From positions 1 to 21,572 of IMG/VR virus record IMGVR_UViG_3300027861_000222: 21,572 nucleotides of DNA, one strand, 5' to 3'. Numbering within the stretch: the first letter of the stretch is position 1; each line of letters begins with the position of its first letter. The translations under genes and the position numbers were made by a program. The notes beneath the pieces were generated by a model. The model saw nothing but the letters and a program-made list of their open reading frames with translations. It did no database searches and was not told the DNA's origin. Below, piece by piece: positions 2,037-16,435 of this stretch. Source of the stretch: a virus.

Positions 2037-2905
2037 CAACCATTAACTTTACCGTGCCTCCGGGCATCTCTGACGGGTCTCCAGCAACGGCTGACGACGC
2101 ATCCTTTGCCTTTGACGCAATGGAAGGGCTCTTTCAGAGCGGCGTTCACGACAATAACTTTTCCAAGGATGCGGTGATCCGTGGTCAGAGCTTTCGCCAA
2201 AGCGCCCTGTCCGACGTGTTCTCGAGGAAGACCTCGTCAGAGCACTGGTCAGTTCTCCCAGGAACAGGGGACAAGTCTTTTGATGTTCCTGGCGGAGCGC
2301 TTAGGTTCCGCCTCAGGGCTCCTGCAGATGTCCTGGTCTTCTTCTCCGCTACCGTTCACCGGATAAATAGAAAACTCAACAAGAGCCCTGATGGAAAGGA
2401 GCAGGGTGGTTACGGGTTTTTCGCGTGGACATTTAACGCCCTGTGGGAGGGGTCTGACTCCGACCCAGGCAGCGAATACATTCAGGCCAGGTCACTTCTT
2501 AGGGGAAGGCTTGGGGCCTACGGCAGCAAGTTCGATGTATCGCGCGGCGTTTTCATGCCGTGGAAGATTAGTCCTATTGACGAGGGCGTTCCGGTAGATT
2601 TAGAGAAAACACGCATGGTCTCCCCGTCGCTTTCTAACGACGCAGGCCGACTTCAGGCTGGTTGGCACAACGTCAGGCACACGGTCAACTGGGAGCCCTT
2701 TGGGCTCGGCTTAAACGATAAAGACGCATGTTCTACGATGGTGATTGGAAATACAGAGCTTGTTGTTGTCGCCAATTACGGTAGGAAAGAGGATACACTC
2801 GCCTATGAAGCAACAGTTCCGCCGCCGATTGTTGTGGTTACGCAGGATTCGTCAGACTCAATCTCAGGAACTAAAATCATTTACGAGAAAATAAACCGAG
2901 GCTGA
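2033..2905 (+). CDS. Fibre-like virion protein, third of three related genes
   Basis: A 290-residue protein starting in an ATGA overlap with the previous gene. It has the same order of elements as the two proteins before it. An N-terminal helix is followed by a D-N-N-F-S-K-D-A-V segment (about residues 41-49), a beta domain (ALRFRLRAPADVLVFFSATV, about residues 86-105), an HTV motif at H216, and a hydrophobic strand TELVVVANYG. Unlike the others it extends about 35 residues beyond that strand, with a Pro/Val-rich stretch and a Ser/Asp-rich tail. No catalytic motif, membrane segment or signal peptide is seen. I infer a fibre or spike component, possibly assembling with the two upstream proteins. 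The stop overlaps the next start (TGATG). Confidence 0.6.
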   Translation: MTTINFTVPPGISDGSPATADDASFAFDAMEGLFQSGVHDNNFSKDAVIRGQSFRQSALSDVFSRKTSSEHWSVLPGTGDKSFDVPGGALRFRLRAPADVLVFFSATVHRINRKLNKSPDGKEQGGYGFFAWTFNALWEGSDSDPGSEYIQARSLLRGRLGAYGSKFDVSRGVFMPWKISPIDEGVPVDLEKTRMVSPSLSNDAGRLQAGWHNVRHTVNWEPFGLGLNDKDACSTMVIGNTELVVVANYGRKEDTLAYEATVPPPIVVVTQDSSDSISGTKIIYEKINRG

Positions 2906-3501
2906 TGGTTACTTCATACACAAAACCCATGGGGCCTTACGACACTGCATTTGAGGTGCAGTCCGGTCGTCTTGGCGAGGCTAGAAGGAAGGCAGAGTCT
3001 GCCCCCCTTGATTACTCGAGGCTAGGTGGCAGGGCTCTTGGTCAGCGAGGAGACATGCTCGCCTCTTTCGCTAAGGCAGCTCAGAATGTTTCACAGGACC
3101 GTCGAAGCGCCGACATGAACCGCACCATTTCTTGGGATAACGCCAGAATTAAAAAGCAGGCCCTTGTCGATAAACTGAAAGCAGAAAACATATCCAGCCT
3201 TGTCTCTACCGGAGGCAAGTTTGCTCAGGACCTTGCACGAAGGGGAGTCGACATAAGCACTCGCGAGATGGGCGTTGAGGACATCGGCACGATGTATGGG
3301 ATTGATCCAACAACCGAGGGCCCAAAGGCTAGAGCAGAGCGCGAGAGGCAGTTGTTCCAACTTCTTAACGAGAATCGGATCAGAGAGACTGAGGAAGGTT
3401 CTGGCAGATACCGATTCACGCCAGGCGGGGGATTTCAGGAGTTTCATAGGGGCCCCTATTGGTGGGAGAGCCCCTCCTCTACTGGAGGCTGGACTAGATA
3501 A
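2905..3501 (+). CDS. Predicted helical virion-associated protein upstream of the ejection-protein set
   Basis: A 198-residue protein with TGATG coupling to the preceding gene. The N-terminal two thirds are helical and rich in Arg, Ala and Gln (residues 20-155), with a heptad-like stretch around residues 70-95. The C-terminus is Gly, Pro and Trp rich (about residues 168-198). No membrane helix, signal peptide or catalytic motif is visible. It directly precedes three proteins that look like internal/ejection proteins and shares their Ala/Arg/Glu bias, so a minor internal virion or tail-tube assembly role is plausible. I do not recognise a family. Confidence 0.55.
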   Translation: MVTSYTKPMGPYDTAFEVQSGRLGEARRKAESAPLDYSRLGGRALGQRGDMLASFAKAAQNVSQDRRSADMNRTISWDNARIKKQALVDKLKAENISSLVSTGGKFAQDLARRGVDISTREMGVEDIGTMYGIDPTTEGPKARAERERQLFQLLNENRIRETEEGSGRYRFTPGGGFQEFHRGPYWWESPSSTGGWTR

Positions 3502-4103
3502 TGTTACTTACACAGATTGCAGCTGCAGACCAGTTCAAGAAGGCCAACATCGGCCTCTCCGACCAGGACTACTACGACAGGTTCATCGCCCCTTACGCAA
3601 AAGAGCGTTATCGACAGGCTATTGGCGAGGGCGGTGCCATGCAGAGGGGAGCGAAGAAGACGCAGGGCCAGCTCGTCTCAGCTCAGTTTGGCGGTCGAGA
3701 TACTTCCATGGGCCAGGCGGCGATAGGCTCAATGGCCCCCACCTTCAGAAAGGCAATGTCTGGAGTTATGGGCAGGGTCCAGCAGGACGTTGACAAGTGG
3801 GGCGCTCAGAAGATGATGGAGAGAAAGCAGGACGTGGCTAAGGCCCGAGAAACTGTTGAGCAGGTGAACAGGCTTGAGGCTGGACTGGCGGCGGCTATCC
3901 CGTATGCAGGCCAATACATCTCTGCAGGAACTGCTGCAGGAGGAGCCCTCATGGACGTGGGCGTGGGTGAGGCGATGCTGGCCGGAAACAAGCGCCCCCT
4001 TCGCACGGTTCAGTTCGGGCAAAACCCGTATGAGCAAGACTCTCCTGGCCTTAGTATGGGCGGCGGCGGAGTCTCCAACCTCTACAATCTTTCCTACGCT
4101 TAG
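3501..4103 (+). CDS. Putative small internal virion (ejection) protein, T7 gp14-like by size and order
   Basis: A 200-residue protein with TAATG coupling to its neighbour. The N-terminal half is charged and helical. An Ala/Gly-rich hydrophobic stretch follows at about residues 126-161, compatible with membrane insertion, and the tail is Gly/Asn/Tyr rich. T7 gp14 is a protein of about 200 residues that enters the outer membrane during DNA ejection and is encoded just before gp15 and gp16. Here the next genes encode 703 and 2194 residues, the same small-medium-large order. The assignment rests on length, hydrophobic segment and gene order, not on recognisable sequence identity. The alternative is an unrelated head-tail assembly protein. 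Confidence 0.5.
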   Translation: MLLTQIAAADQFKKANIGLSDQDYYDRFIAPYAKERYRQAIGEGGAMQRGAKKTQGQLVSAQFGGRDTSMGQAAIGSMAPTFRKAMSGVMGRVQQDVDKWGAQKMMERKQDVAKARETVEQVNRLEAGLAAAIPYAGQYISAGTAAGGALMDVGVGEAMLAGNKRPLRTVQFGQNPYEQDSPGLSMGGGGVSNLYNLSYA

Positions 4104-4112
4104 GGGCTTCTG

Positions 4113-6224
4113 ATGGCTAACGGGCACGACCTCTATCCGGGCAGTGGTTTGGCTGATGAACTAATCAGTGCAAACGCAATGCGCCCTTACGCCAATACCT
4201 TTAAGGACATTTACCAAGGCATGATGGAGGGCCGAAAGGTCGCTCTGGCAGAGAAGCAAGCGCGTGACATTGAGTACCAACGAAGGTTCATGCGGGAGGA
4301 GGCGCAGAGGAAGGCTAGGGAAGCCGCCTATCCGACATCTGGAGGCGGGACTACTGGTGGGGCTACTGGCTCTACTGGCGGGGCTGGCGGGACCGGCATC
4401 CTAAGCGGAGAGGTTGCTGGGGTTCCTTATTCAGTTCGTTCAGAATCAGACATACTTGCCGAGCTCCTTGCTCCAGGAACCGCTTCGCTTCAAAGCGCTC
4501 AGGTTGGCGATATGTTTAGCGACAAGGGTCTAATGGCCCGGATTGCCAGGGGGAAAGAGGAGGGCGTTGGTGACATTGGTGGCGGGTACGCAGGGCGGAA
4601 CATAACCCCCAGCGGCGAGCGCTTCGTAACCCCGGAAGCCTTGCGAATACCCGGCGCGGCCTCTCGCACTTTTGCTCCAGGCCCGCCTGCCGGCACAGAG
4701 CGGCGCGGTGAGCCCAGCGCGGACAAGTTCATGGCTAAGGTTGCTGGTATCGACGATAAGGCTAAGCAGGAAAGGATGGACACCACCCGTCTAATCCAAA
4801 GCCTTGTTAAGGGCGGTCTTATTCCCGAAGAGACTCTCTACTCTGGAACCCCAGAAGAAGCGGCTGAGGAGATCTCAAACCTTCTCGCTGGCCTATCCCC
4901 AGGAGTTCTGCAACAGCGCATTGAAAGCGTTGAGGGCTATGAGGGTGTTCCCATGGCTGACTTTGAACGCCTCAGGGCTAGGGCAGCGAAGATGAGTAGC
5001 CAGGAGCTCCAGGCAGCGAGGGGCGAGGCAAGAGCTAAGGGGGTTAAGGGAGCCCTTGCGGTCCTGAAGTCCGACCCTGTCTTTGCCGGCCTTTCTGACA
5101 AGGCCGCTTCGTACCTAGCAAACCTCCAGATGACCAACTTTGATCGCTTTAAGGAGTTCATGGGCGAGGCTGGGCAGACGTACAGGAAGGTTCTCGGGGA
5201 AGAGGGTGCTACGGCGCGGAACAATGCGGATAATGCGGTTCTGTGGACTAAGCGGGCAGACCGTCTCAGAGAGAACGAAGCCCGAACTGCAGCCCTCTCG
5301 ATAAAGTATTTCGAGAACGCGAGGCGGGAAAGAGACGCAGCCCTTAATGCCGAGATGGAGTCTGCGGAAAGCGCAGCGTCTGTGGCGGAGACGCAGTTCC
5401 AAGATGTTGCTCTTGTCGTTAGCGGAGACGGTGATCTTCAGAGCCAGCTGGAAACCGCCAAGAGACTGCGTCAAACGTCGACAAAGGAGGAGTTGCTAAA
5501 AATCCTTGTCGATGCAGATGTAGAGAACAAGGGCTTCCCTCCTGAGGAGGCAAGGAAAAGGGCTCAGATCGTCGTTGACTACCTTAGGCTCGACGTGGAA
5601 AGGGCGGTGCTTGCCAGTAAAGCTAAGGACCTTTCAAGCGACATCGACATTGTTCTGTCGGGTAAAAGCATCGAGCATCTGCAGTCGGAGGAAGTTAGGG
5701 GGATCGCTGAAAACTACTTTAAGGATGCGGAGGTTGCCGCACTCAAGGCGGAGGCAAAGGGTCCTGAGGACATGCGGTACGAGGAACAGATCGACGCTCG
5801 CATGGCAGGGTTTAAGAGCAGGGAGAGGATTGCAGAGGCCCGAAATGATGCCCGCGCCCTCACAGCCCAAGGAAGAAGAGCAGGCGGGCTGACTGAAGCC
5901 GAGGCTAGGTCCCTAGCGCAAACTGTCGGAGACGCCCTCGACCTTGACGACCCGCAAAGAGGCCTGCTTTTTGAGCTTTCAAAGACCCCTGCGGGAAGAA
6001 AGAAACTCCTACAGGAGGCCAACGTAGACAACCCAAGCGAGACCATCAGGATGTTGCAAGGGCTGGGTATGATTCCTTCTCGAACTGGCGGCGGGTCTAA
6101 TCAAGCAACTCCGTCTGAGCCACACGAGTGGGGGGTGACGACGAGGGGTGACGGGACGGTGTGGGAGATACCCTTGGGCAGGGACGGAAAACAAGACATG
6201 CGCTTCAGCCCCAGAAAAAAATAA
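4113..6224 (+). CDS. Putative mid-sized internal virion (ejection) protein, T7 gp15-like by size and order
   Basis: A 703-residue protein, close to the length of T7 gp15 (about 750). A charged N-terminal helix (residues 36-72) is followed by a low-complexity Gly/Thr linker at about residues 75-95. Residues from about 210 to 640 are almost continuously helical, rich in Ala, Glu, Arg and Lys, with no membrane segment and no Cys-rich or nucleotide-binding motif. Long helical composition fits the tube-forming ejection proteins of podoviruses. The C-terminus is short and basic (SPRKK). A TAGGGG sequence about 7 bases before the ATG may serve as ribosome binding site. It sits nine bases after the 200-residue gene and six before the 2194-residue gene. 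Function is inferred from composition and order. Confidence 0.5.
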   Translation: MANGHDLYPGSGLADELISANAMRPYANTFKDIYQGMMEGRKVALAEKQARDIEYQRRFMREEAQRKAREAAYPTSGGGTTGGATGSTGGAGGTGILSGEVAGVPYSVRSESDILAELLAPGTASLQSAQVGDMFSDKGLMARIARGKEEGVGDIGGGYAGRNITPSGERFVTPEALRIPGAASRTFAPGPPAGTERRGEPSADKFMAKVAGIDDKAKQERMDTTRLIQSLVKGGLIPEETLYSGTPEEAAEEISNLLAGLSPGVLQQRIESVEGYEGVPMADFERLRARAAKMSSQELQAARGEARAKGVKGALAVLKSDPVFAGLSDKAASYLANLQMTNFDRFKEFMGEAGQTYRKVLGEEGATARNNADNAVLWTKRADRLRENEARTAALSIKYFENARRERDAALNAEMESAESAASVAETQFQDVALVVSGDGDLQSQLETAKRLRQTSTKEELLKILVDADVENKGFPPEEARKRAQIVVDYLRLDVERAVLASKAKDLSSDIDIVLSGKSIEHLQSEEVRGIAENYFKDAEVAALKAEAKGPEDMRYEEQIDARMAGFKSRERIAEARNDARALTAQGRRAGGLTEAEARSLAQTVGDALDLDDPQRGLLFELSKTPAGRKKLLQEANVDNPSETIRMLQGLGMIPSRTGGGSNQATPSEPHEWGVTTRGDGTVWEIPLGRDGKQDMRFSPRKK

Positions 6225-6230
6225 CTGACC

Positions 6231-9200
6231 ATGGCAGTCAAGCGAGTTGACCCCTCAGAAGTTGATTGGAGCGGTGTAGACGCCGCCCCGTCCGACCAGA
6301 GGCAAATCAGTTCCTCAGAAGTTGATTGGAGCGGTGCAGACGAGCTCGCTGCGCCCGTAGACCAGCCACAGTACGAGATTGCCCCAGGAGCGAAACTCGA
6401 GTTTGCCGAACGAGCTGTTCTCGGCAAGGTGTTGGGCCAAGAAGGCTTGGGCAGTAAAGAGAAGTCTCGGCACATAGAAGACCTTCTCAAGAAAGACTCA
6501 AGGGGAGAGCAGTTTCTAGAGAGTGTTTCTCGATATAGGCCAGAGCCGGAAGGCGGCGCTTGGTGGCACCGGCCTCTAGAGCAACTTGCCGATGTTGTGG
6601 ACGTTGGCTTTACGGTTTTCGGAAAGAGTGTTGTTCGCCCGATACACGCTGAGGCCTCTGCTGAGGCGGACTTTAGCGCCCTTATGGGCAAGACGAATAA
6701 GGAGCGAAGCGACTTCCTGGGCAAGGTTCACGAGAAGGACGACGCAAGAGGGGCTTACGAAGAGATTGTCTTTGGGCTCAACCAGGCAGAAGACGCAAGA
6801 AATCGAATCAAGCGGATTGCCGCCGAAAACGGGTATGCGTATGGGGAGCGGCCTTTGGGCCCAACCGGCAGCGGCCTAATTCCCGGCGCACATGAAGTAG
6901 ATGTTTGGGCTAAGGGTTCCAGGCGCTCTCGTTCCGGCGTTTCTGGACTTTCGGAAGAGCATGCCAGCGAGATTCGGTCTCTTCAGCTGCAAATGCGAGA
7001 GGGGTTTACCTCTGCGGGGTCTGGAGGAAACAAACTGTCTCGGGCTTACTTCGACCCAAACCTTCCTGGCTTTAGCAACAACAGAAGCCCTTACGGTGGA
7101 GATGCGCCTCGACCGTGGGAGGGCCCTTCTGATGTCACTGAGAACATTCTTCGCGGCCTCATCGGGATGGACGATCCAGAAACCCTCGACAAGTCTAGAA
7201 AGTTCCTTCAAAAGGCATCCGGCTTAACTATCGACCTCCTTATGCCTGACTGGGCGATCTACAACGCAGAGCGCGGCGACTGGCTAACCACAAGCCGGCT
7301 TGGCGACAAGAAGTTGGAGATACTGAAAGAGAAGACCGGCGCAGACGTTCACCCGCTAGCCCTCATAAACCCGCTTGACAGCCTTATCGGGCTTGAGGCG
7401 CGCAAGAGGCTTAAGGCGGACAGGGACCGCAGGATAGAAGCGGGTGACTACAGGAGCGGTCTGTTTCTTTTTGAGGCGGCTACCATGCTCGGGCCAGACT
7501 TGGCGATGCCGAGGACTCCAAGGGTGCTGGTGACTCCCGCCGGCCGTCTTACTGAAAAGGGAGACCGCGCTGTTCGAGGAGTCCAAGAAAAGCACTTGGG
7601 CGACCTTGCCGAACACTACGCGGAGATCAGCGCTGCCCGCCTTGACGATGGCCTGGACATTATCCCAAGGCAGCAAGTCGAGGAGGGGTTAAACAAGCTC
7701 AGGGCAGACATTGACGGGGAGATTGCCAGAATTGGCGACGAGGCGCTGAGCGAGGGCAAGGCCATTTCTGGCTTTGACTTCAGCGATTCGATTCATCTTA
7801 CGGACGATGGAGTTGAGTTTATTGGCGGCAAGGCCAAGCCGGTTTACTCGTCTATTCAGGACGGGGCAAAGCCGCTTACCAGGAAAGAGATTCTTAATTC
7901 CGACGACATATTTGCCGGAAGAAAGTCTGGCTTCGCCAATGTTGTTGATGCGTCAAAGGACGTTGTTGCGGAAATAAAAGTAGCAATGACCTCAGGAGAG
8001 AGGCTCGTTCAAGTAACCCCGGAGATCAGAAAGAGCCTCAAGTTTGATACTTTTGGCGAGTGGGTCGTTGAGACTTCGAGCGGTGGGTACAGGGAACTAA
8101 GCCCTCGCGACCTCATCGGTCAAAACCAAGTCGCGTCTTTCGACAAACTTGGTACTAGATGGGGCACCGACGCCTCTTCGTTTATAAGGAAGTTTGACGA
8201 AGCCGCCTTTCATATCGACAAAAACACGGCCAACGCAGAGCAGAGGGCGCTCTACGGCTCCGCTTTGGAGATCCTGGGGGATCCATCTCCTGACACTGCA
8301 GAAGGGCTCCTGCTTCTCGACTCCCTGCGAGAGGCTATCCTGGACGGCCTCGACCTCGTGCCCCATTCAGCAAATGCCCCCGCAAGAGCGGCTGCTAGCC
8401 GGATTCGCGCCGCGCAGAAGGCGTCAAGCAAGGCGAAGGATCTTGCGAAGAAGGCTGCTAGCTCACAGTCCGACGAGCTCATTAGGGAGGCTGGTGTCGC
8501 AGCAGACATAGCGAATGGACTAGCCGCAGACGCACACGTTCACGCACTAATGGCAAACGCAAACAAGTCCCTTGCGGTTGAGTCGAGCGTTGCTCGCGCC
8601 GAACTAAGGACGGCAAATAAAAACGTCCTCGCTGCGGAGAGCGATCTGGCGAAGGTTAGGCAGCAAAGAGAAAGCGTTACCGGAAGGGCTCGCGCCGCTC
8701 TTAACGAAATGGACGACCAGAAGGCCTTCGCTGAAATAGCGGAGATGGATAGGAATGCGGCGGAACTTGCCTCCAAAGAGCTCGATGTCAGGATCGCAAG
8801 AGAGAAGGCGGATGTTGCCAGAGAGGCTTTCGAGGTGCTCGAGGAGTCTGTTCGCGCCCTGGAGAAGATGGGCGGGCCATCTCAAAAACTAAACCTCAAC
8901 GACCTCACAAGGCTCGCCGGCAAATACAAGACAGAATACAACCTCGCAGTAAAGGAAATCGAGGGTCTTTCCTCCACGAGAAACAGGTCTCTGGGGGTTG
9001 CTCAAAAGAAGATCTGGAAGCAGGCAGAGAAGGTTCCCCGACTCATGAAGGAGTCGGCAGAGAAGGCTGCTGCCGGGAGCAGGACTAGGTGGGCAGACCC
9101 TGCGGCCCTAGAGGCGCCCTCTGCCGACCGATTGCTGACGGACATGGTTGTTGGGGCCAGAGAGGCGCAAAGAGAAGCAGGCAGGCTTACCGCTAAGGTT

Positions 9201-12200
9201 GGAGCTGAAGAACTCCCAGAGGGCGCCAGCGTCTTTGAGAGACGCTCTCTCTCGGCAAGGAAGGGCGTGGCTACCAAGGGACGCAAGTCGTCAGCAGAGT
9301 CGGCCAGAGAGGCTGGGGCGCTACTTGAGTCGGAGACTAACGCCAGGGTCGCTACTGCGATGCTGAAGTGGGTGAACCTTCGCGACCAAGCAAGGAACAT
9401 CGGCAGGGAGATATTGAGCGCCGCGAAGAGGCGGGACTTTGCCGAGATGCGAAGACTCACCCTGCTTCACGAGAAAAGCATTATCTCCCTTGAGCGCAAA
9501 TCAGCAGCAGTCGCAAAGAGTCTCGCCAAAGAGGCAAGGAAGACGGCCAACGAGGCCAAAGCAGCTGCAAAGAAGGCGGTCTCTGTTGAGGTAAGGGCTA
9601 GGTCGGCAAGATCTGACTTGGTTCGGGCTCGAAAGGCTGAGGGCGTGGCGATGGCGAAATCTGCCAAGGCCATGGCGATAGTCAACAGGGCCGCTGAGGT
9701 GGTTGAGTCCATTGGTGGAAGGGAGGCGGCTCCGTTGCGAGACTTCCTCCTGGAGACGATGCAGAGGAACTACCTCGCAGGCCAGGAGGTGCGGCAGATA
9801 CTGACCTCTGTTCTTGGGTACTCAACGAAGAGCGAGGCGGCTGCTATTCGCGCCGCAGAGGCGCGCATTAACCTTCTAGAGCACACCATGAGGGAGTTTG
9901 CTTCGGACGCTACTCTTTACGAGGTTCTCGGTGACGTGACCGTCGCAGAGGCGCAGCAGGCGACTAGAGCCCTTGAGCGGATTGCAGAGGGCAGGGCTCC
10001 AGACCTGAGCAAGTTGACGGACAAGGCGAGGGACGCTCTCGACATAGGAAGAAACCTCCTTGAGGACGTGTATGAAGTCTTCAAGGCCGCTGGGAAAATC
10101 AGCAAAGACCATAGCAAGGAGAAGTTCCTTGAGGACATGCTTCTGGAGGGATACCTTCCGCACATCTTCACCGTTAAGGGGTCGCGGGCGATAGCCAAGA
10201 TTCTTGGCGAGAAGGGCGCCCTCTCTACGGTTATCGCAAGTGCCCTGAAGAGAACGAAAAAGGGCGGCGTTGAGGAGCTCAATCAGCTCGTCCGCGAAGA
10301 CACGGCCAGGATGCTTTACGAGGAAGCTCGGTCCACCTACAAGGGCATGTCTCGGGAGGACGCGATTGCTGCGATTATCAAGGAGCACGGTCTCGATAAA
10401 ATCTCTGTGTACGAGGCGGACGCCGTTAAGATTTTCCAGCTCTACGGGAGAGGCGGTGGCAAGGGGCTGGCGAATACGAGGCTTATTCGGGAAACAAAAA
10501 CCCGTTACCCGCGACAGGCAGAGTTTGCCGCCATGGCGAAGAAGCCGGGGGGAGTCCCTGCAGCAGACGCTGCCGCAAAAGAGGCTGGTTATGTAAGGAT
10601 TCCTCAGGCCGCGCACATGGAGCTTTATCTGGCGGACCCGGTTTGGGCTGGATGGAAAGAGCACTCTAAGGAGATTCGGAACTTCCTGAAGGCAGGGGTT
10701 AAGGACAAAAGCGGAAAGACTGTTCCTGTCACGAAGGAAGATCTGCTCAACAAGCTCAAGCAGATCGGAGCCGACGTATCTAGAGTTTCGGATGAAGAAC
10801 TCACGTTTGTTATGAGCGAGCACCTGTATGCCCCAGCGCCTATTGCAGCGTTCCTAGAAGACCTAGTTCGCCCGGACTGGATGAAGAGCTTCAAAGAGGC
10901 TGACAATGTGATGCTGCGCGAGATGGGCCTCAGCTTCGATGAGTATCTTCGTAACTGGAAAATGATGGTCACAATTTTTGCCCCGGCATTCCATGGGCGA
11001 AATGCGATCTCTAACGTCATTCAAAACACCCTGGTGCATGGGACGGACGCTCTAAATCCGAGTACATACGCAGACTCGTTTGCGATCATGTACGGAGCTG
11101 ACGACGCCCTGCACACGATTAGATGGGTAGACGACGCTGGCGTTGAGCACCTCAATACAAAGACGTTCAAGGAGTGGCGACAGATAGCCGAGAGAACGAA
11201 CGTCGACACCGAGATGGTTACGGTCACAGATGTCGGCGCTACGTTTGCCTCCAAGAAGACGGAGGCGCTTGGTCGGGCAGCGAAAGACTTCGTTCAAAAC
11301 ATGAACAAAGAGACCTTTGCTGTGCTGGCGAAGCACACAGCGGTACCGTTCCTCGCCGGCAGTGCTGGCGCCGTGTATGGGTTTAACTCCGCAGAGGAGG
11401 AGGCCGACTTTGGGCACAAGATGACCATGGCGGTGGGCTACGGTGCAGCTGGTCTGTTTGCTGGAATGGCAGGGAAAACCCACTACGACGTGTTCATGTC
11501 AGACGGGCACAAGGCCTATCAACACGCAAAATCTCTAGGGAAACCCAACAAGCAGGCGATGCTTGACGGTTGGAACGAGGCCTATCCCGCCTATTTGGAG
11601 TTGCTTAAGAACTCCACTCGAGTTGGCGCCTTCTCTGCGACAACGGCTGGCGTGACTGCCGGCACGTCGATTGCTGTTGGGCTAACGACTGGCGGCGCCT
11701 CAACGGCTCTCCAGATAGCGGCAGGGGCTGGCATGACTTCCGCAGGAGCGAAGGTCGCCCTCGAGTCCCTTGCGTTTTTCGCTGGCGGCGTTGGCAAGGG
11801 GATTGAGAGGCAGGCCCGGTACACTAATTGGATTACGGGCATGAAGAAGGGCATGTCTCCTGAGGCATCGGCTCATCTAGTCAACCAGACCTTGTTTGAC
11901 TACAACAAGCTCTCCTCGCTCGAGAGACATACGATGAGGCGCATATTCCCCTTCTGGACCTGGAACTCAAAGAACTTCAGGCTGCAGGGCTGGTTGATGG
12001 ACAATCGGCCAAAGACGTATATCGCCCAGGCAAGGGTGCTTGACATGCTTCAGAAGGATGTCATGTCCGCCGAGGATATGGCGACAGTTCCGCCGCACCT
12101 TCGATACCGGATTGCGGCAGCGTATGGGAATGGGAAGATTATCAGCGGCTTCGGTCACCCGATTGAACCGATACTTGACCTTACGAAGCCTGGACTTGGC

Positions 12201-12815
12201 GGCGTCCTATCGAATGTGCATCCCACGATCCCCCTTCTGATGAAGTTTGGCGCCTTTGGACTGGGCTCAGAGGGGAAGGACCCGTACTTTGGGGTGGATA
12301 TTACGGAGCTCAGGTCGGCTAGGGATGTTCGATTCCTTCCAGAAGTTGTCCAGGAGTGGGTTGGGTATGGGACGACACTCGACCCAAGGACCGGAAGATT
12401 GAAGCACCAAACGGGGTTGTTTGCCGACGGCCCAGACGCAGCTCTCGGAGCGAAGAGGATGGCCCTCTTGAGGTCCTTTGAGGCTTGGAGGCTCGTGTCT
12501 GAATGGAACAAGGTTGTTGTTGACAGTTTCATGACAAGCACGTCTCAGGGCGTTGTTGGCGATCCGGCTACCGCAGGGGAGAGGTTTCTGTCGATCACGA
12601 CTGGCATTAAGCCATACGCAAGAAGGCCAGAGGAAATTAGGGACCTTCTTTGGTTCTCTTACGAGAGGCGCTTGATGGATATTTTGGAAGAGCGGGGCCT
12701 AATTAAGTCAATGAAGTATGCGCCGTCGATGCCTCCCATCCGAGTGAAAGAGGCTTCTGGCAGGGTCGACATGACCCCCAAGTTGACCGACGAGCGAAAC
12801 CTGGGGGCTAGGTAG
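6231..12815 (+). CDS. Giant 2194-residue virion protein, putative ejection/internal polyvalent protein
   Basis: This gene fills nearly a third of the window. It begins with two copies of an SEVDWSG element (about residues 8-14 and 28-34). Residues 45-700 form a mixed region without a recognised enzyme. Residues about 714-1160 are a long Ala/Lys/Arg/Glu-rich coiled-coil stretch. A GYLPHIFT segment lies near residue 1307. A W-K...P-A-F..R-N...N segment (about 1574-1592) and an R-R-I-F-P-F-W-T-W-N segment (about 1901-1911) resemble conserved elements of the C-terminal regions of very large phage 'polyvalent' proteins. Two small-residue hydrophobic stretches (about 1700-1750 and 1798-1857) could insert in membrane. 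It is longer than T7 gp16 (about 1320) but holds the same position; no transglycosylase motif is visible. No clear ribosome binding site precedes the ATG. Confidence 0.6.
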   Translation: MAVKRVDPSEVDWSGVDAAPSDQRQISSSEVDWSGADELAAPVDQPQYEIAPGAKLEFAERAVLGKVLGQEGLGSKEKSRHIEDLLKKDSRGEQFLESVSRYRPEPEGGAWWHRPLEQLADVVDVGFTVFGKSVVRPIHAEASAEADFSALMGKTNKERSDFLGKVHEKDDARGAYEEIVFGLNQAEDARNRIKRIAAENGYAYGERPLGPTGSGLIPGAHEVDVWAKGSRRSRSGVSGLSEEHASEIRSLQLQMREGFTSAGSGGNKLSRAYFDPNLPGFSNNRSPYGGDAPRPWEGPSDVTENILRGLIGMDDPETLDKSRKFLQKASGLTIDLLMPDWAIYNAERGDWLTTSRLGDKKLEILKEKTGADVHPLALINPLDSLIGLEARKRLKADRDRRIEAGDYRSGLFLFEAATMLGPDLAMPRTPRVLVTPAGRLTEKGDRAVRGVQEKHLGDLAEHYAEISAARLDDGLDIIPRQQVEEGLNKLRADIDGEIARIGDEALSEGKAISGFDFSDSIHLTDDGVEFIGGKAKPVYSSIQDGAKPLTRKEILNSDDIFAGRKSGFANVVDASKDVVAEIKVAMTSGERLVQVTPEIRKSLKFDTFGEWVVETSSGGYRELSPRDLIGQNQVASFDKLGTRWGTDASSFIRKFDEAAFHIDKNTANAEQRALYGSALEILGDPSPDTAEGLLLLDSLREAILDGLDLVPHSANAPARAAASRIRAAQKASSKAKDLAKKAASSQSDELIREAGVAADIANGLAADAHVHALMANANKSLAVESSVARAELRTANKNVLAAESDLAKVRQQRESVTGRARAALNEMDDQKAFAEIAEMDRNAAELASKELDVRIAREKADVAREAFEVLEESVRALEKMGGPSQKLNLNDLTRLAGKYKTEYNLAVKEIEGLSSTRNRSLGVAQKKIWKQAEKVPRLMKESAEKAAAGSRTRWADPAALEAPSADRLLTDMVVGAREAQREAGRLTAKVGAEELPEGASVFERRSLSARKGVATKGRKSSAESAREAGALLESETNARVATAMLKWVNLRDQARNIGREILSAAKRRDFAEMRRLTLLHEKSIISLERKSAAVAKSLAKEARKTANEAKAAAKKAVSVEVRARSARSDLVRARKAEGVAMAKSAKAMAIVNRAAEVVESIGGREAAPLRDFLLETMQRNYLAGQEVRQILTSVLGYSTKSEAAAIRAAEARINLLEHTMREFASDATLYEVLGDVTVAEAQQATRALERIAEGRAPDLSKLTDKARDALDIGRNLLEDVYEVFKAAGKISKDHSKEKFLEDMLLEGYLPHIFTVKGSRAIAKILGEKGALSTVIASALKRTKKGGVEELNQLVREDTARMLYEEARSTYKGMSREDAIAAIIKEHGLDKISVYEADAVKIFQLYGRGGGKGLANTRLIRETKTRYPRQAEFAAMAKKPGGVPAADAAAKEAGYVRIPQAAHMELYLADPVWAGWKEHSKEIRNFLKAGVKDKSGKTVPVTKEDLLNKLKQIGADVSRVSDEELTFVMSEHLYAPAPIAAFLEDLVRPDWMKSFKEADNVMLREMGLSFDEYLRNWKMMVTIFAPAFHGRNAISNVIQNTLVHGTDALNPSTYADSFAIMYGADDALHTIRWVDDAGVEHLNTKTFKEWRQIAERTNVDTEMVTVTDVGATFASKKTEALGRAAKDFVQNMNKETFAVLAKHTAVPFLAGSAGAVYGFNSAEEEADFGHKMTMAVGYGAAGLFAGMAGKTHYDVFMSDGHKAYQHAKSLGKPNKQAMLDGWNEAYPAYLELLKNSTRVGAFSATTAGVTAGTSIAVGLTTGGASTALQIAAGAGMTSAGAKVALESLAFFAGGVGKGIERQARYTNWITGMKKGMSPEASAHLVNQTLFDYNKLSSLERHTMRRIFPFWTWNSKNFRLQGWLMDNRPKTYIAQARVLDMLQKDVMSAEDMATVPPHLRYRIAAAYGNGKIISGFGHPIEPILDLTKPGLGGVLSNVHPTIPLLMKFGAFGLGSEGKDPYFGVDITELRSARDVRFLPEVVQEWVGYGTTLDPRTGRLKHQTGLFADGPDAALGAKRMALLRSFEAWRLVSEWNKVVVDSFMTSTSQGVVGDPATAGERFLSITTGIKPYARRPEEIRDLLWFSYERRLMDILEERGLIKSMKYAPSMPPIRVKEASGRVDMTPKLTDERNLGAR
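6253..6342. repeat. 30-bp direct repeat, exactly 60 bp apart, inside the giant gene
   Basis: Positions 6253-6282 and 6313-6342 are identical except for one base (T at 6277, C at 6337). The register is exactly 60 bp, so the reading frame is kept and the protein gains two copies of SEVDWSG spaced 20 residues apart. The mismatch changes Val to Ala. The short, near-perfect DNA repeat suggests a recent duplication or a conserved short binding motif. Confidence 0.85.
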
Positions 12816-12817
12816 CC

Positions 12818-13120
12818 ATGCCTTTAGATCACAAGCGATTCACCAGGCGTAGGCCCGAGAACCCGACAAGGCCTCAGGAAACTAGGCTTATTCAGAAGTC
12901 GCCCTTTGACGTTAAAGACCAAATGGTCGCGAAAGACAGTTCTGGTTCGACCGGAAGCCTGTCTATTTCAACCAAGAGCTACGAGGGGCAGCTCATGTCT
13001 GACTTAAGAACACAAGACTTACTGCGCGAAGTCTTGTATGAATTGAAACACATCAGGCTGCACATGGAAGCGCTGTCTGGCGAAGACCTCAGAGGAGATG
13101 TTGAATATGCAGATCAATGA
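12818..13120 (+). CDS. Small protein with C-terminal helical segment, paired with decoration-type protein
   Basis: A 100-residue protein starting two bases after the giant gene. The N-terminal 30 residues are basic and Pro/Arg rich, the middle is Ser/Gly/Thr rich, and the C-terminal 40 residues form an amphipathic helix (LLREVLYELKHIRLHMEAL, about residues 69-87) followed by an acidic end. Short proteins with such a 'LL.E.L.ELK.I..H' helix are common in environmental phage genomes just before a beta-rich decoration-type protein, and that is the arrangement here. This resemblance is from memory and is not proof. The 3' end overlaps the next gene by 14 bases. Role unknown, probably virion-associated. 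Confidence 0.6.
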   Translation: MPLDHKRFTRRRPENPTRPQETRLIQKSPFDVKDQMVAKDSSGSTGSLSISTKSYEGQLMSDLRTQDLLREVLYELKHIRLHMEALSGEDLRGDVEYADQ

Positions 13121-13757: not shown

Positions 13758-14174
13758 ATGGCAATTACTCTTCCCGTATACACAAACTGTGCGCGCCAGA
13801 ATGTGGGCGACCCTGGCGGGACAGCCGAGTTCCCAGCCGGCGGTAGTGGGGCCATCAAAATCCGCGTGTTTGGCGACACCGCCGTCGAGGCGGATTCACC
13901 CGGCGTTGCTCGAGGACTGCTTATTGGCTGTCGAGTTACCGCAGACGCCGCAGCGGGCACCGTAACCATCAGGGTCTACAGCGACGACAGCAAGACTGAC
14001 GAGCTGTACAACGTAGGGTTGGACTGCTCCTCTTCCCCGTTCATGTCGTCAGATGTGCTGTCTCAGGGGATTCCGTTTTTCTCGCCCCCCCACTTCACCA
14101 TCCAGTGCTCTGTGGACCCGAACGACGACGTTCATGTTACCTTCTATATCAAGTCCATTGCCGGCAATGGATAA
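13758..14174 (+). CDS. Beta-sandwich type small virion protein
   Basis: A 138-residue protein preceded by AAGGAG at good spacing, one of the best ribosome binding sites in the rightward unit. The sequence alternates hydrophobic and polar residues throughout, with a Gly-rich loop near residues 19-31, a G-T-V-T-I-R-V-Y-S segment in the middle, and a final strand VHVTFYIKS. Four Cys are present (about residues 11, 58, 90 and 115). No signal peptide or membrane segment is seen. Size and strand pattern match the two 123-residue proteins encoded at 17463-18215, so it may be another decoration-type protein of high copy number. It ends in TAATG, coupled to the lectin-like gene. Confidence 0.55.
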   Translation: MAITLPVYTNCARQNVGDPGGTAEFPAGGSGAIKIRVFGDTAVEADSPGVARGLLIGCRVTADAAAGTVTIRVYSDDSKTDELYNVGLDCSSSPFMSSDVLSQGIPFFSPPHFTIQCSVDPNDDVHVTFYIKSIAGNG

Positions 14175-15001
14175 TGGCAAGCCATCCATTGAGTCATGGT
14201 GTCAGGAGCCATCCCAGCCGGGTTTCTAGGGGGGAGGAGAACGGCGCTCTCCGAAAACACCCAAGGCTTTTGTTTGACCCACGAAACATGCAGACCCCCC
14301 TGCTTGTCTGGGTTCGCGCCGACCTGGGCATTGGACTGAACGGATCGGCTGTCTCTACTTGGGCCGACTACAGTGGCGAGGGCAACAACTTCGCGCAAGC
14401 TACTGCTTCGCTCCAGCCAGCACCTACAGCCAATGGCATTGGCGGTCGTCCAGGCATTTCCTTTGATGGAACGTCTGACCAGATTAACGGTCCCAGCTTT
14501 TATGGCATGCTCAGCGATCCCGCAGACTGGTCGTTCTTCGTGGTGGGTGGCGGATGGACGTGGGGAGCAAGCGTCAATGCCTATCACGGTCGCGGAATGC
14601 TCGGCGCTCCTGTGCTCGGCAGTAGTTATTTTTACGTTGGCGTCACTACCGAGGCAGGCCCAGGCATCGGCACCGGGTACTGGGACGCAAGCGCTCACCG
14701 AATAGGCTACGAGGACTCCGCAGCCGAGGGGCAGAATGTGATAGTGGCTGGCACAAGCGACGGTGGGGAAGTGACGACGAGAGTCAACGGTTCGGCGGGC
14801 TCTACAACCTCTGGCGCAACTGGGGCAGGGGTGAACTCATTAGGCACGCTTCTTCAAATTGGCAAAGGAAACGGCAACCTCAATTATTGGGACGGGTCGA
14901 TCTCTGAGGTGTTGGTCTTCGACGGGGCGTTGAGCGGCGAAGAGATCAATCAGGTCGAGCAGTACCTTGGCGACCGCTACGACATCGGGGTGCAGGGATG
15001 A
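14174..15001 (+). CDS. ConA/LamG-like lectin-fold protein, probable adhesin or glycan-binding virion protein
   Basis: A 275-residue protein. The ATG at 14174 overlaps the previous stop (TAATG) and is preferred over an in-frame ATG upstream. Residues 1-38 are polar and basic. From residue 44 the pattern LVWVRAD...LNGSAVSTWADYSGEGNN, then GRPGISFDGT (about 91-100), is the hallmark start of ConA-like/LamG-type jelly-roll domains. The hallmark end is also present at about residues 238-266: DGSISEVLVFDGALSGEE, then INQVEQYLGDRY. Such domains bind glycans and are common in phage adhesins and surface decorations. No catalytic residues are evident. Location between decoration-type and lysis genes suggests a virion surface role, perhaps host or matrix attachment. 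The fold call is strong; the ligand is unknown. Confidence 0.75.
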   Translation: MASHPLSHGVRSHPSRVSRGEENGALRKHPRLLFDPRNMQTPLLVWVRADLGIGLNGSAVSTWADYSGEGNNFAQATASLQPAPTANGIGGRPGISFDGTSDQINGPSFYGMLSDPADWSFFVVGGGWTWGASVNAYHGRGMLGAPVLGSSYFYVGVTTEAGPGIGTGYWDASAHRIGYEDSAAEGQNVIVAGTSDGGEVTTRVNGSAGSTTSGATGAGVNSLGTLLQIGKGNGNLNYWDGSISEVLVFDGALSGEEINQVEQYLGDRYDIGVQG

Positions 15002-15288
15002 AGTGGCTAGTTCTGGAGACGCTCGCAGCCGCTGAGAGCCGCGCAGACGACATCTCTGAGGCTATGGGATACCCGCATCCATCAACGGATACAGAGCGGG
15101 CGACGTTGCCGATAGAGCATCCAAGTGATGGCAAAGGGGCTGTTCCAATAGCGGCTAGCGTCTGGTCCTGGGTTGCAGAAGAGTCTATCGACATGGCTTC
15201 TTTATTGACATCTACAGAGCAGGCTGCTTTGTATGACCTCGCAGAGATGGACTCTGCCGGGTGGTTCCCGTCCGTACCGTTGGAATAA
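14998..15288 (+). CDS. Small hypothetical protein coupled to the lectin-like gene
   Basis: A 96-residue acidic protein that starts in a four-base ATGA overlap with the lectin-like gene. The N-terminus is helical (residues 1-22). A His/Pro-containing stretch follows, then a helical C-terminal part (about residues 65-86) and a Pro-containing tail. There is no signal peptide, despite a few hydrophobic N-terminal residues, and no membrane segment or recognisable motif. Tight coupling to the upstream gene suggests a partner, for example an assembly chaperone or cap for the lectin-like protein, but that is guesswork from position. Three bases separate it from the first lysis-cassette gene. Confidence 0.55.
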   Translation: MKWLVLETLAAAESRADDISEAMGYPHPSTDTERATLPIEHPSDGKGAVPIAASVWSWVAEESIDMASLLTSTEQAALYDLAEMDSAGWFPSVPLE

Positions 15289-15290
15289 TT

Positions 15291-15479
15291 ATGGACCTCT
15301 TCATACAGTCTTGGCCTGTTCTTTTATCTGGCGCATCGCTTGTCGTTGGCGGCTCCCTGTGGGCTGGCAAGGTCTTCTTCATGCTTCAGGGCATAGAGGC
15401 AAAGATAGATTGCATGTCACAGAACATCGCTACGCACGAGCATGACCCAGAGGGTCGTGTTGTTATTCCCGCGAGGTAG
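15291..15479 (+). CDS. Small single-membrane-segment protein, holin candidate
   Basis: A 62-residue protein. The frame is open from 15261, but the ATG at 15291 lies just after the preceding stop and gives a typical short membrane protein, so it is preferred. One membrane segment covers about residues 8-32. A short amphipathic helix and a His/Asp/Glu-containing polar tail follow. Small proteins with one N-terminal membrane helix and a short coiled tail are common next to phage endolysins, and this one ends two bases before the endolysin start. It could be a holin, an antiholin or an endolysin-associated accessory protein. There is no experimental-type evidence in the sequence to choose. Confidence 0.6.
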   Translation: MDLFIQSWPVLLSGASLVVGGSLWAGKVFFMLQGIEAKIDCMSQNIATHEHDPEGRVVIPAR

Positions 15480-15481
15480 CA

Positions 15482-15886
15482 ATGCCCTCCTTCGGCAAGA
15501 GCAGCAAGGATCGCCTTGCTACATGCCATCCAGACCTCCAGAAACTGATGAACGAGGTGATAAAGCACGTCGACATCAGCATTCTATGCGGACATCGAAG
15601 CGTTGAGGAGCAGGCTGAGCTCTACCGCCAGGGCAAAAGTAAGCTCGACGGGTCTGCAGGGAAGAAGTCGAACCATAACTACAAACCAAGCAGGGCGGTC
15701 GACTTCAGCCCTTACCCGGTGAGGTGGGAGCGCGAGCGATTCATCGCTGCTGCTTATTTCGCCAAAGGCATCGCGTCACAGATGGGCATCAAGGTAAGAC
15801 TTGGATGTGATTGGAACGCGGACCTCGTATTCTCAGAGGGCTTCTTTGATGGGCCTCACCTGGAGCTGGTAATTGACGATGAATAA
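15482..15886 (+). CDS. M15-type peptidoglycan peptidase (endolysin)
   Basis: A 134-residue protein with the zinc peptidase motifs of family M15 (VanY / L-alanyl-D-glutamate peptidase type). A G-H-R-S-V-E-E-Q segment lies at residues 37-44. SNHNYKPSRAVDF (63-75) supplies zinc ligands H65 and D74. A DGPHLEL segment (123-129) supplies the third ligand H126. The length and motif spacing match single-domain phage endolysins, such as the T5 type, that cut the peptide stems of Gram-negative peptidoglycan. No signal peptide is seen, so export would need a holin. A GAGGT ribosome binding site precedes the ATG. It is surrounded by small membrane proteins, as expected in a lysis cassette. I would call this a peptidase endolysin with good confidence; the exact bond cut is inferred from the family. 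Confidence 0.85.
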   Translation: MPSFGKSSKDRLATCHPDLQKLMNEVIKHVDISILCGHRSVEEQAELYRQGKSKLDGSAGKKSNHNYKPSRAVDFSPYPVRWERERFIAAAYFAKGIASQMGIKVRLGCDWNADLVFSEGFFDGPHLELVIDDE

Positions 15887-16064
15887 CAAAGCAAAAAACG
15901 CTCTTATCTTTGCTGCTGTGGCGGGCGTTTTGTCCGCCATGGTCTTTCTTCAGTGGCAGGGCCCAGTGCCTAGCCAACCCATAGACCTTTCTGATGATGA
16001 CGATTCTGGCGACGACGACGACAGTTCTCGCTTCGGAAACCTTCCGCCGGCCCCAAAGAAATGA
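15879..16064 (+). CDS. Tiny membrane protein with acidic Asp-rich tail
   Basis: A 61-residue protein from the ATG at 15879. A TTG at 15873 is also possible and has a better-spaced GGAG (15862-15865), so the start is uncertain by two codons. A membrane segment of about 20 residues (from about residue 8) is followed by a linker and then a strikingly acidic stretch with two DDDD runs (about residues 38-48), ending in Pro/Lys. It overlaps the endolysin by 8 bases and the next membrane protein by four (ATGA). N-terminal membrane anchor plus acidic tail is compatible with a pinholin, an antiholin or a small accessory lysis protein. No family is recognised. Confidence 0.6.
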   Translation: MNNKAKNALIFAAVAGVLSAMVFLQWQGPVPSQPIDLSDDDDSGDDDDSSRFGNLPPAPKK

Positions 16065-16435
16065 CTGTATCTGACTACATGGACTTGGCTGTTCGCGCTG
16101 GCGGCATATCCCTAGCTACCTATGCGGTTATTGGGCAGGTCGTAAAGCCCGGACTGCGGATGTTGGCGAAGTATCACTCCCACCCAATTGGCAACCTGAC
16201 AAAGGGCCAGGAGGAGTTTTACCGATGGCTAACCCGCACTCTCTGTGTTGTTATCGGCGGCATCATGGGCTACATGCCTCTCTGGCCCGGTTGGTTTGAA
16301 CCCAGTTGGGGTCCAATCCTTGGCTGCATTGCCGGTTCTATGTCCCCTGGTATCTACCTTGCCGTTTCTAAAGCCCTACCAAAGAAGATACAAAAGCTCA
16401 TCTCTGGTGCCTCAGTTTCTGGCAGTAGCAAATGA
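16061..16435 (+). CDS. Multi-pass small membrane protein, holin candidate
   Basis: A 124-residue protein starting in an ATGA overlap. It has two clear hydrophobic segments (about residues 60-78 and 84-106) and a weaker amphipathic one (about 13-33). They are separated by a charged loop (His, Lys, Glu, Arg), and the C-terminus is short, Lys/Ser rich and basic. Size, two to three membrane passes and basic C-terminal tail are typical of phage holins, and it sits three bases-overlap genes downstream of the endolysin. It is the best canonical holin candidate among four small membrane proteins here, although no specific holin family could be assigned by eye. The next gene also overlaps by four bases. 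Confidence 0.6.
   Translation: MTVSDYMDLAVRAGGISLATYAVIGQVVKPGLRMLAKYHSHPIGNLTKGQEEFYRWLTRTLCVVIGGIMGYMPLWPGWFEPSWGPILGCIAGSMSPGIYLAVSKALPKKIQKLISGASVSGSSK

Follow-up and report, generated by a model that had tools for sequence, protein, structure and literature searches.

Paired replacement of two adjacent genes in a putative ejection-protein operon of uncultured phages

We analyzed a virus record of 21,572 bases (IMG/VR record IMGVR_UViG_3300027861_000222; we call this whole stretch of DNA the window) and focused on three adjacent genes on its + strand. They encode a small protein of 200 amino acids (aa), a medium protein of 703 aa (MID), and a giant protein of 2194 aa (GIANT). A previous reading of the DNA by itself (the sequence-only reading) had singled out this trio, at 3501-12815, for its lengths and order, and open reading frames (ORFs) of these lengths are present there, within one tightly packed operon. 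The small gene overlaps the preceding gene by 1 nucleotide (nt), and the gaps are 9 nt between the small gene and MID and 6 nt between MID and GIANT. The same order was seen again across related contigs, so these are genuine genes and not chance ORFs. Among the relatives, homologues of the small protein are 22-95% identical, MIDs have 601-916 aa, and complete giants have 1900, 2056, 2075, 2314, 2736, or 3204 aa. Our main new result is that, as judged from sequence comparisons, MID and GIANT have been replaced together between close relatives. The features involved, with comparisons to the related contigs G001 and G006, are:

3501-4103, + strand: small protein, 200 aa, which may correspond to T7 gp14 and P22 gp7; outside the exchanged block
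4113-6224, + strand: MID, 703 aa, which may correspond to T7 gp15 and P22 gp20; 27% identical to the G006 allele
6231-12815, + strand: GIANT, 2194 aa, which may correspond to T7 gp16 and P22 gp16
4113-4246, + strand: N-terminal part of MID that is conserved, up to codon ~45 (nucleotide comparison of five contigs)
4247-12815, + strand: exchanged block of 8.57 kb, from MID codon ~45 to the GIANT stop codon (DNA identity to G006)
6122-6340, + strand: nested hypervariable junction, the last ~34 codons of MID and the first ~37 codons of GIANT (DNA comparison with G001)
6255-6335, + strand: N-terminal tandem peptide of GIANT, SEVDWSG, at residues ~9-15 and ~29-35
12818-13120, + strand: 100-aa gene, conserved, which borders the exchanged block on its right; 92% identical to G006 (GIANT, 28%)

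The proteins that flank MID and GIANT are mostly 84-99% identical between the window and G006 (about 79-92% identity at the DNA level), but MID is just 27% identical and GIANT is just 28% identical. DNA identity between the two contigs drops at ~4247 (MID codon ~45) and returns at ~12812 (the GIANT stop codon). These breakpoints are located to within a few bases, and short identical stretches flank both of them. The N-terminal segment of MID, with a YPGS motif that is conserved in relatives, is kept across alleles. The small protein is also kept: it is 88-95% identical in G001, G002, and G006, despite the replacement of the next two genes.

Other contigs have the same exchange. G001 and G002 share 99.8% DNA identity over 10.2 kb, and then, at the same break codon, one continues with the window-type pair and the other with the G006-type pair. 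G003 and G002, which are from two metagenomes, agree over 13.3 kb, and G023-G025 have the G006 giant again, next to a similar right flank. A separate lineage has the pattern too: most right-flank genes are 83-100% identical between G028 and G012, but identity is 32% for the giant (2075 aa in G028, 3204 aa in G012) and 28% for MID. In all, the medium and large genes were co-exchanged in three contig pairs, and wherever both types could be read, the type of MID was the type of GIANT. Between the window and G001, DNA identity is 88.2% for the flank, 92.1% for MID, and 96.9% for the giant gene. The higher identity of the cassette fits the transfer of a block between lineages, as recombination predicts. 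MID and GIANT are the most divergent shared gene pair; other variable spots are a 203-aa gene, the LamG gene, and the lysis region.

Nested within the block is a shorter junction that varies even between window-type alleles. At 6122-6340, DNA identity to G001 is lost, while both sides are 92-97% identical. G002 and G006 lose identity at the same junction: on the MID side, the last 14 codons (G002) or 38 codons (G006) are replaced, and on the giant side, the first 54 codons (G002) or 23 codons (G006). The giant begins with a short peptide in 2-3 copies, and the sequence of this peptide is unlike in most genomes (SEVDWSG, GSAEDLLAEPDV, DRFGNPIDE, VSDEEFDAYE, DPFAGLG, SRFGG.LE, and others). Tandem starts were also found in the giants of L041, L043, L046, L048, L051, L053, L055, L065, L082, and L083. 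When we compared these starts to shuffled sequences, 11 of 13 giants tested, as well as G015, reached the lowest possible p value (0.0033). Among 172 control ORFs, 2.9% had p <= 0.01, and 3 of those 5 are giants. The tails of MID vary in parallel with the repeats of the giant, and three MIDs share an ending of the type ALPxGxxFL, which was found in no other of the 922 ORFs that we checked.

We considered that the tandem peptide might bind a protein with the same motif and rejected this, as the motif was found only in the giant in 6 of 7 genomes scanned. (In the seventh, G013, the extra matches are single copies of RLSGL in two short unvalidated ORFs.) Nor is the tandem peptide general to gp16-like proteins: T7, SP6, P-SSP7, P22, N4, Cellulosimicrobium phage DS1, and Podoviridae sp. 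ct52p938 show none, and among more distant relatives of GIANT (described below), just 2 of 23 had p < 0.05. Conceivably, the tail of MID and the tandem peptides of GIANT are an exchangeable lock-and-key code that matches a giant to its tunnel protein, with the MID-GIANT block setting which host membrane or prophage is permissive, but we would bet against it. The two halves would lie at adjoining gene ends, where one short recombination would swap both, and the code would govern the pairing of giants with tunnel proteins during packing or assembly. Adjacency alone would also carry the MID tail and the giant's repeat together; their mutual binding is hypothetical.

Beyond its N-terminus, GIANT has these regions:

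6573-8369, + strand: N-terminal region, residues ~115-713; 24% identical over ~600 residues to L082 (E = 6e-14)
8370-9710, + strand: alanine-rich region, with a basic second half, of variable length among relatives (composition profile; alignments break here)
9720-12695, + strand: conserved C-terminal core, residues ~1164-2155; 28-38% identity across the clade
10845-12770, + strand: PFYTW domain, with APAFHGRN near residue 1587 and RRIFPFWTW near residue 1907 (alignments)
11319-11678, + strand: span of two hydrophobic stretches rich in small residues (1697-1715 and 1798-1816), which may insert into a membrane

The sequence-only reading had described two small-residue hydrophobic stretches toward the C-terminus of GIANT, and we found them: the best Kyte-Doolittle means over 19 residues are 1.20 (residues 1697-1715) and 1.23 (1798-1816), compared to 1.32-1.44 for T7 gp16. 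It had also described a hydrophobic stretch in the small protein, which is present and weak (best mean 1.01; T7 gp14 has 1.31 and 1.01). As it had noted, GIANT has no transglycosylase, or any other recognized enzyme or effector domain (Pfam, E <= 1). GIANT also has no RNA polymerase domain (Pfam) and no metallopeptidase, its C-terminal core did not match N4 gp50 by hhalign, and the other giants of the clade that we scanned have no enzyme domain. We considered whether each allele carries its own, unrelated cargo in the N-terminal half and rejected this, as the N-terminal regions of the clade are divergent homologues (GIANT and L082). In the 3204-aa giant of G012 (L046:8856-18470), segments ~1555-1582 and ~1969-2025 both match one segment of a 2736-aa relative, so a duplication may explain part of the difference in length between these two giants.

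Database searches with the trio found little. None of the three proteins matched Pfam at E <= 1; in PHROGs, MID and GIANT had chance-level matches only and the small protein had none; and nucleotide and translated searches against 50,697 phage records found no match. Sequence-profile searches of PDB with MID and the C-terminal core of the giant gave chance matches only. A scan of genome contigs for prophage carriers or a host found just one contig, from a metagenome-assembled genome.

An alignment search found relatives of the C-terminal block of GIANT in 75 viral contigs, including the clade's own. The PFYTW domain that they share has the motifs K..T..P.FH.RN and FDY..L..E...RR.FPFYTW, and Pfam and NCBIfam models did not recognize it in the members we scanned. 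Among distant giants with this domain, L085 has a Zeta-toxin domain, L119 has a Fic domain, and L106 (and weakly L099) has an FtsK-gamma domain. These effector or DNA-binding domains come singly, not several to a polypeptide, and the window's GIANT has none (Pfam). The domains of the distant giants suggest a common delivery module with differing cargo. The proposal that GIANT is an enlarged ejection protein with cargo is plausible for this wider family, but the window's GIANT carries no recognizable enzyme.

AlphaFold2 (AF2) gave a confident model for one compact homologue of the PFYTW domain (pLDDT 82, pTM 0.77). In BFVD, this model matched proteins named large polyvalent protein associated domain, LPD38, ART-PolyVal, Zeta toxin, RelA/SpoT, and LT_GEWL, with E values reaching 2e-10, and for the LPD-named proteins the aligned part was not displayed. 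The Pfam model for LPD38 (PF18857) had no match at E <= 10 in 25 records, and the controls gave none either.

Where do these genes lie relative to the structural genes? G001, which has a window-type giant (96% identity), reaches further upstream than the window does. Its order is scaffold-like (named by position), major capsid (phrog_9953, E = 3e-25), two small genes, adaptor-like (phrog_399/10775), nozzle-like (L002:1710-4064, which matches phrog_3287 and phrog_511), and then the genes of the window. In other contigs, there are ORFs of terminase size and portal size further upstream (both names are from position and size). A search with the capsid protein retrieved 26 contigs, many of which have the same operon. 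Using a nozzle profile, we found that at least 9 distinct distant phages, including DS1 and ct52p938, have a nozzle gene 3-6 kb upstream of their PFYTW giant. The layout is that of podovirus ejection proteins: three adjacent genes, small-medium-large, behind adaptor and nozzle genes. T7 places its ejection proteins in the same slot (gp12, 13, 14, 15, 16), and so does P22 (gp10, 26, 14, 7, 20, 16). Because a capsid-adaptor-nozzle series precedes the trio, and because distant phages also have nozzle-giant order, we conclude that the trio holds the podovirus ejection-protein slot. For the resemblance to the podovirus ejectosome that the sequence-only reading had proposed, position and layout agree, while homology to T7 gp14/15/16 or P22 gp7/20/16 was undetected by hhalign, which was insensitive.

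We think that the trio are probably podovirus DNA-ejection (internal virion) proteins, with MID and GIANT inherited as a matched pair. We infer that, after adsorption, the three proteins would leave the head ahead of the DNA and build a conduit across the envelope. The small protein would be outermost, MID would form the tunnel, and GIANT would sit at or pass through the inner membrane by means of its PFYTW domain and hydrophobic stretches. The small protein and the first ~45 residues of MID would dock on conserved parts of the virion and hence stay, while the rest of MID and GIANT would be exchanged as one block because both must fit each other. By analogy to P22 gp16 and gp20, the driver is likely selection at the inner-membrane step, from superinfection exclusion or host membrane factors.

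Several results weigh against this interpretation. By hhalign, the trio did not match the ejection proteins of T7, SP6, P-SSP7, P22, or N4; since most of the known control pairs failed too, we did not use this null result as evidence. The confident PFYTW model had no convincing fold match in PDB or VIA (best Z 2.6), and the model of the 1045-residue C-terminal core, which had no fold match in PDB, was too poor for a meaningful search (pLDDT 55, pTM 0.41). The BFVD matches include phages labelled Myoviridae or Siphoviridae, so the PFYTW domain is not confined to short-tailed phages. Also, the G001 join is known from one contig, so the G001/G002 pair alone could be a chimera.

This last point raises the question of whether the exchange is mostly an artefact of metagenome assembly, with near-identical stretches of different strains misjoined. 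The identical stretches at both breakpoints would be compatible with that, but we consider it very improbable. The window and G006 share just about 79-92% DNA identity in their flanks, and a chimera there would take an error at each end of the block; G002 and G003 agree despite their different metagenomes; the G006 giant is seen again in G023-G025, where the right flank is similar; and a second lineage (G028 and G012) has the same pattern. It is also rather improbable that the trio descends from the same ancestors as T7 gp14-gp15-gp16, beyond the reach of sequence detection, so that GIANT would be an enlarged gp16 that lost its transglycosylase. The order and the ranking of sizes are alike (the order agrees with P22 as well), and the hydrophobic stretches near the C-terminus of GIANT resemble those of T7 gp16. 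On the other hand, there is no profile match, and the confident PFYTW fold was not matched in PDB, which has T7 core structures, though absence is no proof.

A different view of GIANT is that it is primarily polyvalent cargo, packaged in the head and injected to counter host defences from within the cytoplasm. Its C-terminal PFYTW domain would then be a module for packaging and ejection, the variable remainder would be the effector, and the exchange would reflect an arms race instead of fit within a conduit. We find this unlikely for the window, even though the predicted PFYTW structure matches the polyvalent-named, ART-PolyVal, Zeta-toxin, RelA/SpoT, and LT_GEWL proteins, distant members have Zeta-toxin, Fic, and FtsK-gamma domains, and polyvalent proteins have been described as packaged early effectors beside virion genes (PMC5512222). 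Neither the window's GIANT nor the clade giants that we scanned have an enzyme domain, and their N-terminal regions are divergent homologues, not unrelated effectors. Moreover, MID, which has no recognizable effector domain, is exchanged alongside GIANT.

Around the trio, the window also contains:

1-423, + strand: 3' end of the gene for the tail nozzle, which has 784 aa in G001; 97% identical to the end of L002:1710-4064
2905-3501, + strand: 198-aa protein directly upstream of the trio; 87% identical to its G001 homologue and conserved in the clade

The 198-aa protein occupies the place of P22 gp14 or T7 gp13, a likeness by position only. Behind the nozzle gene, genes for 246-aa and 221-aa proteins (685-2036) are 84% and 67% identical to G006 and diverge faster than the nozzle or capsid genes; they might encode receptor-binding or tail-tip proteins. 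Downstream of the trio are a LamG-domain protein and then an endolysin, and on the opposite strand, a RuvC-like resolvase, a Sak4-like protein, and a PD-(D/E)XK exonuclease. The LamG ORF (14105-15001) and the 138-aa ORF before it (13758-14174) overlap by ~70 nt, in G006 as well, so the true start of the LamG gene may lie further downstream, or a frameshift may link the two ORFs. The lysis/accessory region (14998-16435) is a second variable locus, where G006 has other genes. L059 and L062 combine a G006-type giant with window-like lysis/accessory genes, so this region appears to recombine independently of MID and GIANT.

Three things are new here: MID and GIANT are exchanged as a pair, at breakpoints that could be defined; the tandem peptides at the N-terminus of the giant are swappable; and polyvalent-type proteins are linked to the ejection slot. 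The swap of the MID-GIANT pair hints that an inner stage of infection is under strong selection, and it points to the inner-membrane stage as a locus whose variation metagenomes can reveal. Through the PFYTW domain, proteins that have loosely been named "polyvalent" are tied to the podovirus ejection slot.

Among known systems, the polyvalent/LPD38 proteins (Iyer et al. 2017, PMC5512222) resemble GIANT in the predicted PFYTW fold and in the Zeta, Fic, and FtsK-gamma domains of distant members, but the window's GIANT has no known effector domain and the Pfam LPD38 model is unmatched. N4 and DEV (Schitoviridae) eject giants of ~3,400-3,500 aa alongside two smaller ejection proteins (PMC12633501, PMC10925440); GIANT differs in its lack of an RNA polymerase or metallopeptidase domain. 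In T7, gp14, gp15, and gp16 have 196, 747, and 1318 aa, close to the sizes that the sequence-only reading had quoted, and structures of the T7 core are in PDB (PMC8954989). The trio shares with T7 the small-medium-large order behind the nozzle gp12 and weak hydrophobic stretches in the small and large proteins, but GIANT is 1.7 times longer and is without the N-terminal lytic transglycosylase of gp16. P22 gp16 is also without a transglycosylase (PMC8954989). It differs from GIANT in its length (609 aa vs. 2194 aa), and there is no tandem peptide at its N-terminus. In other respects, P22 (Lederbergvirus) is similar: its ejection genes come after scaffold, coat, adaptor, and gp10, and the small protein is conserved while the medium and large ones vary. 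Specifically, gp7 is more conserved, and few virion proteins vary as much as gp16 and gp20; changes in gp16 or gp20 escape the inner-membrane exclusion protein SieA; and, when taken from Sf6, gp16 or gp20 fails singly while both together work, and gp7 works singly (PMC10883804). So it was already known from P22 that two ejection proteins must match and are a target of superinfection exclusion. Just as the medium and large proteins of P22 must match, the pair in the window's clade appears, from sequence, to be co-exchanged between contigs, and an uncultured group of phages with no detectable sequence relation to P22 displays the same pairing, as a natural experiment.

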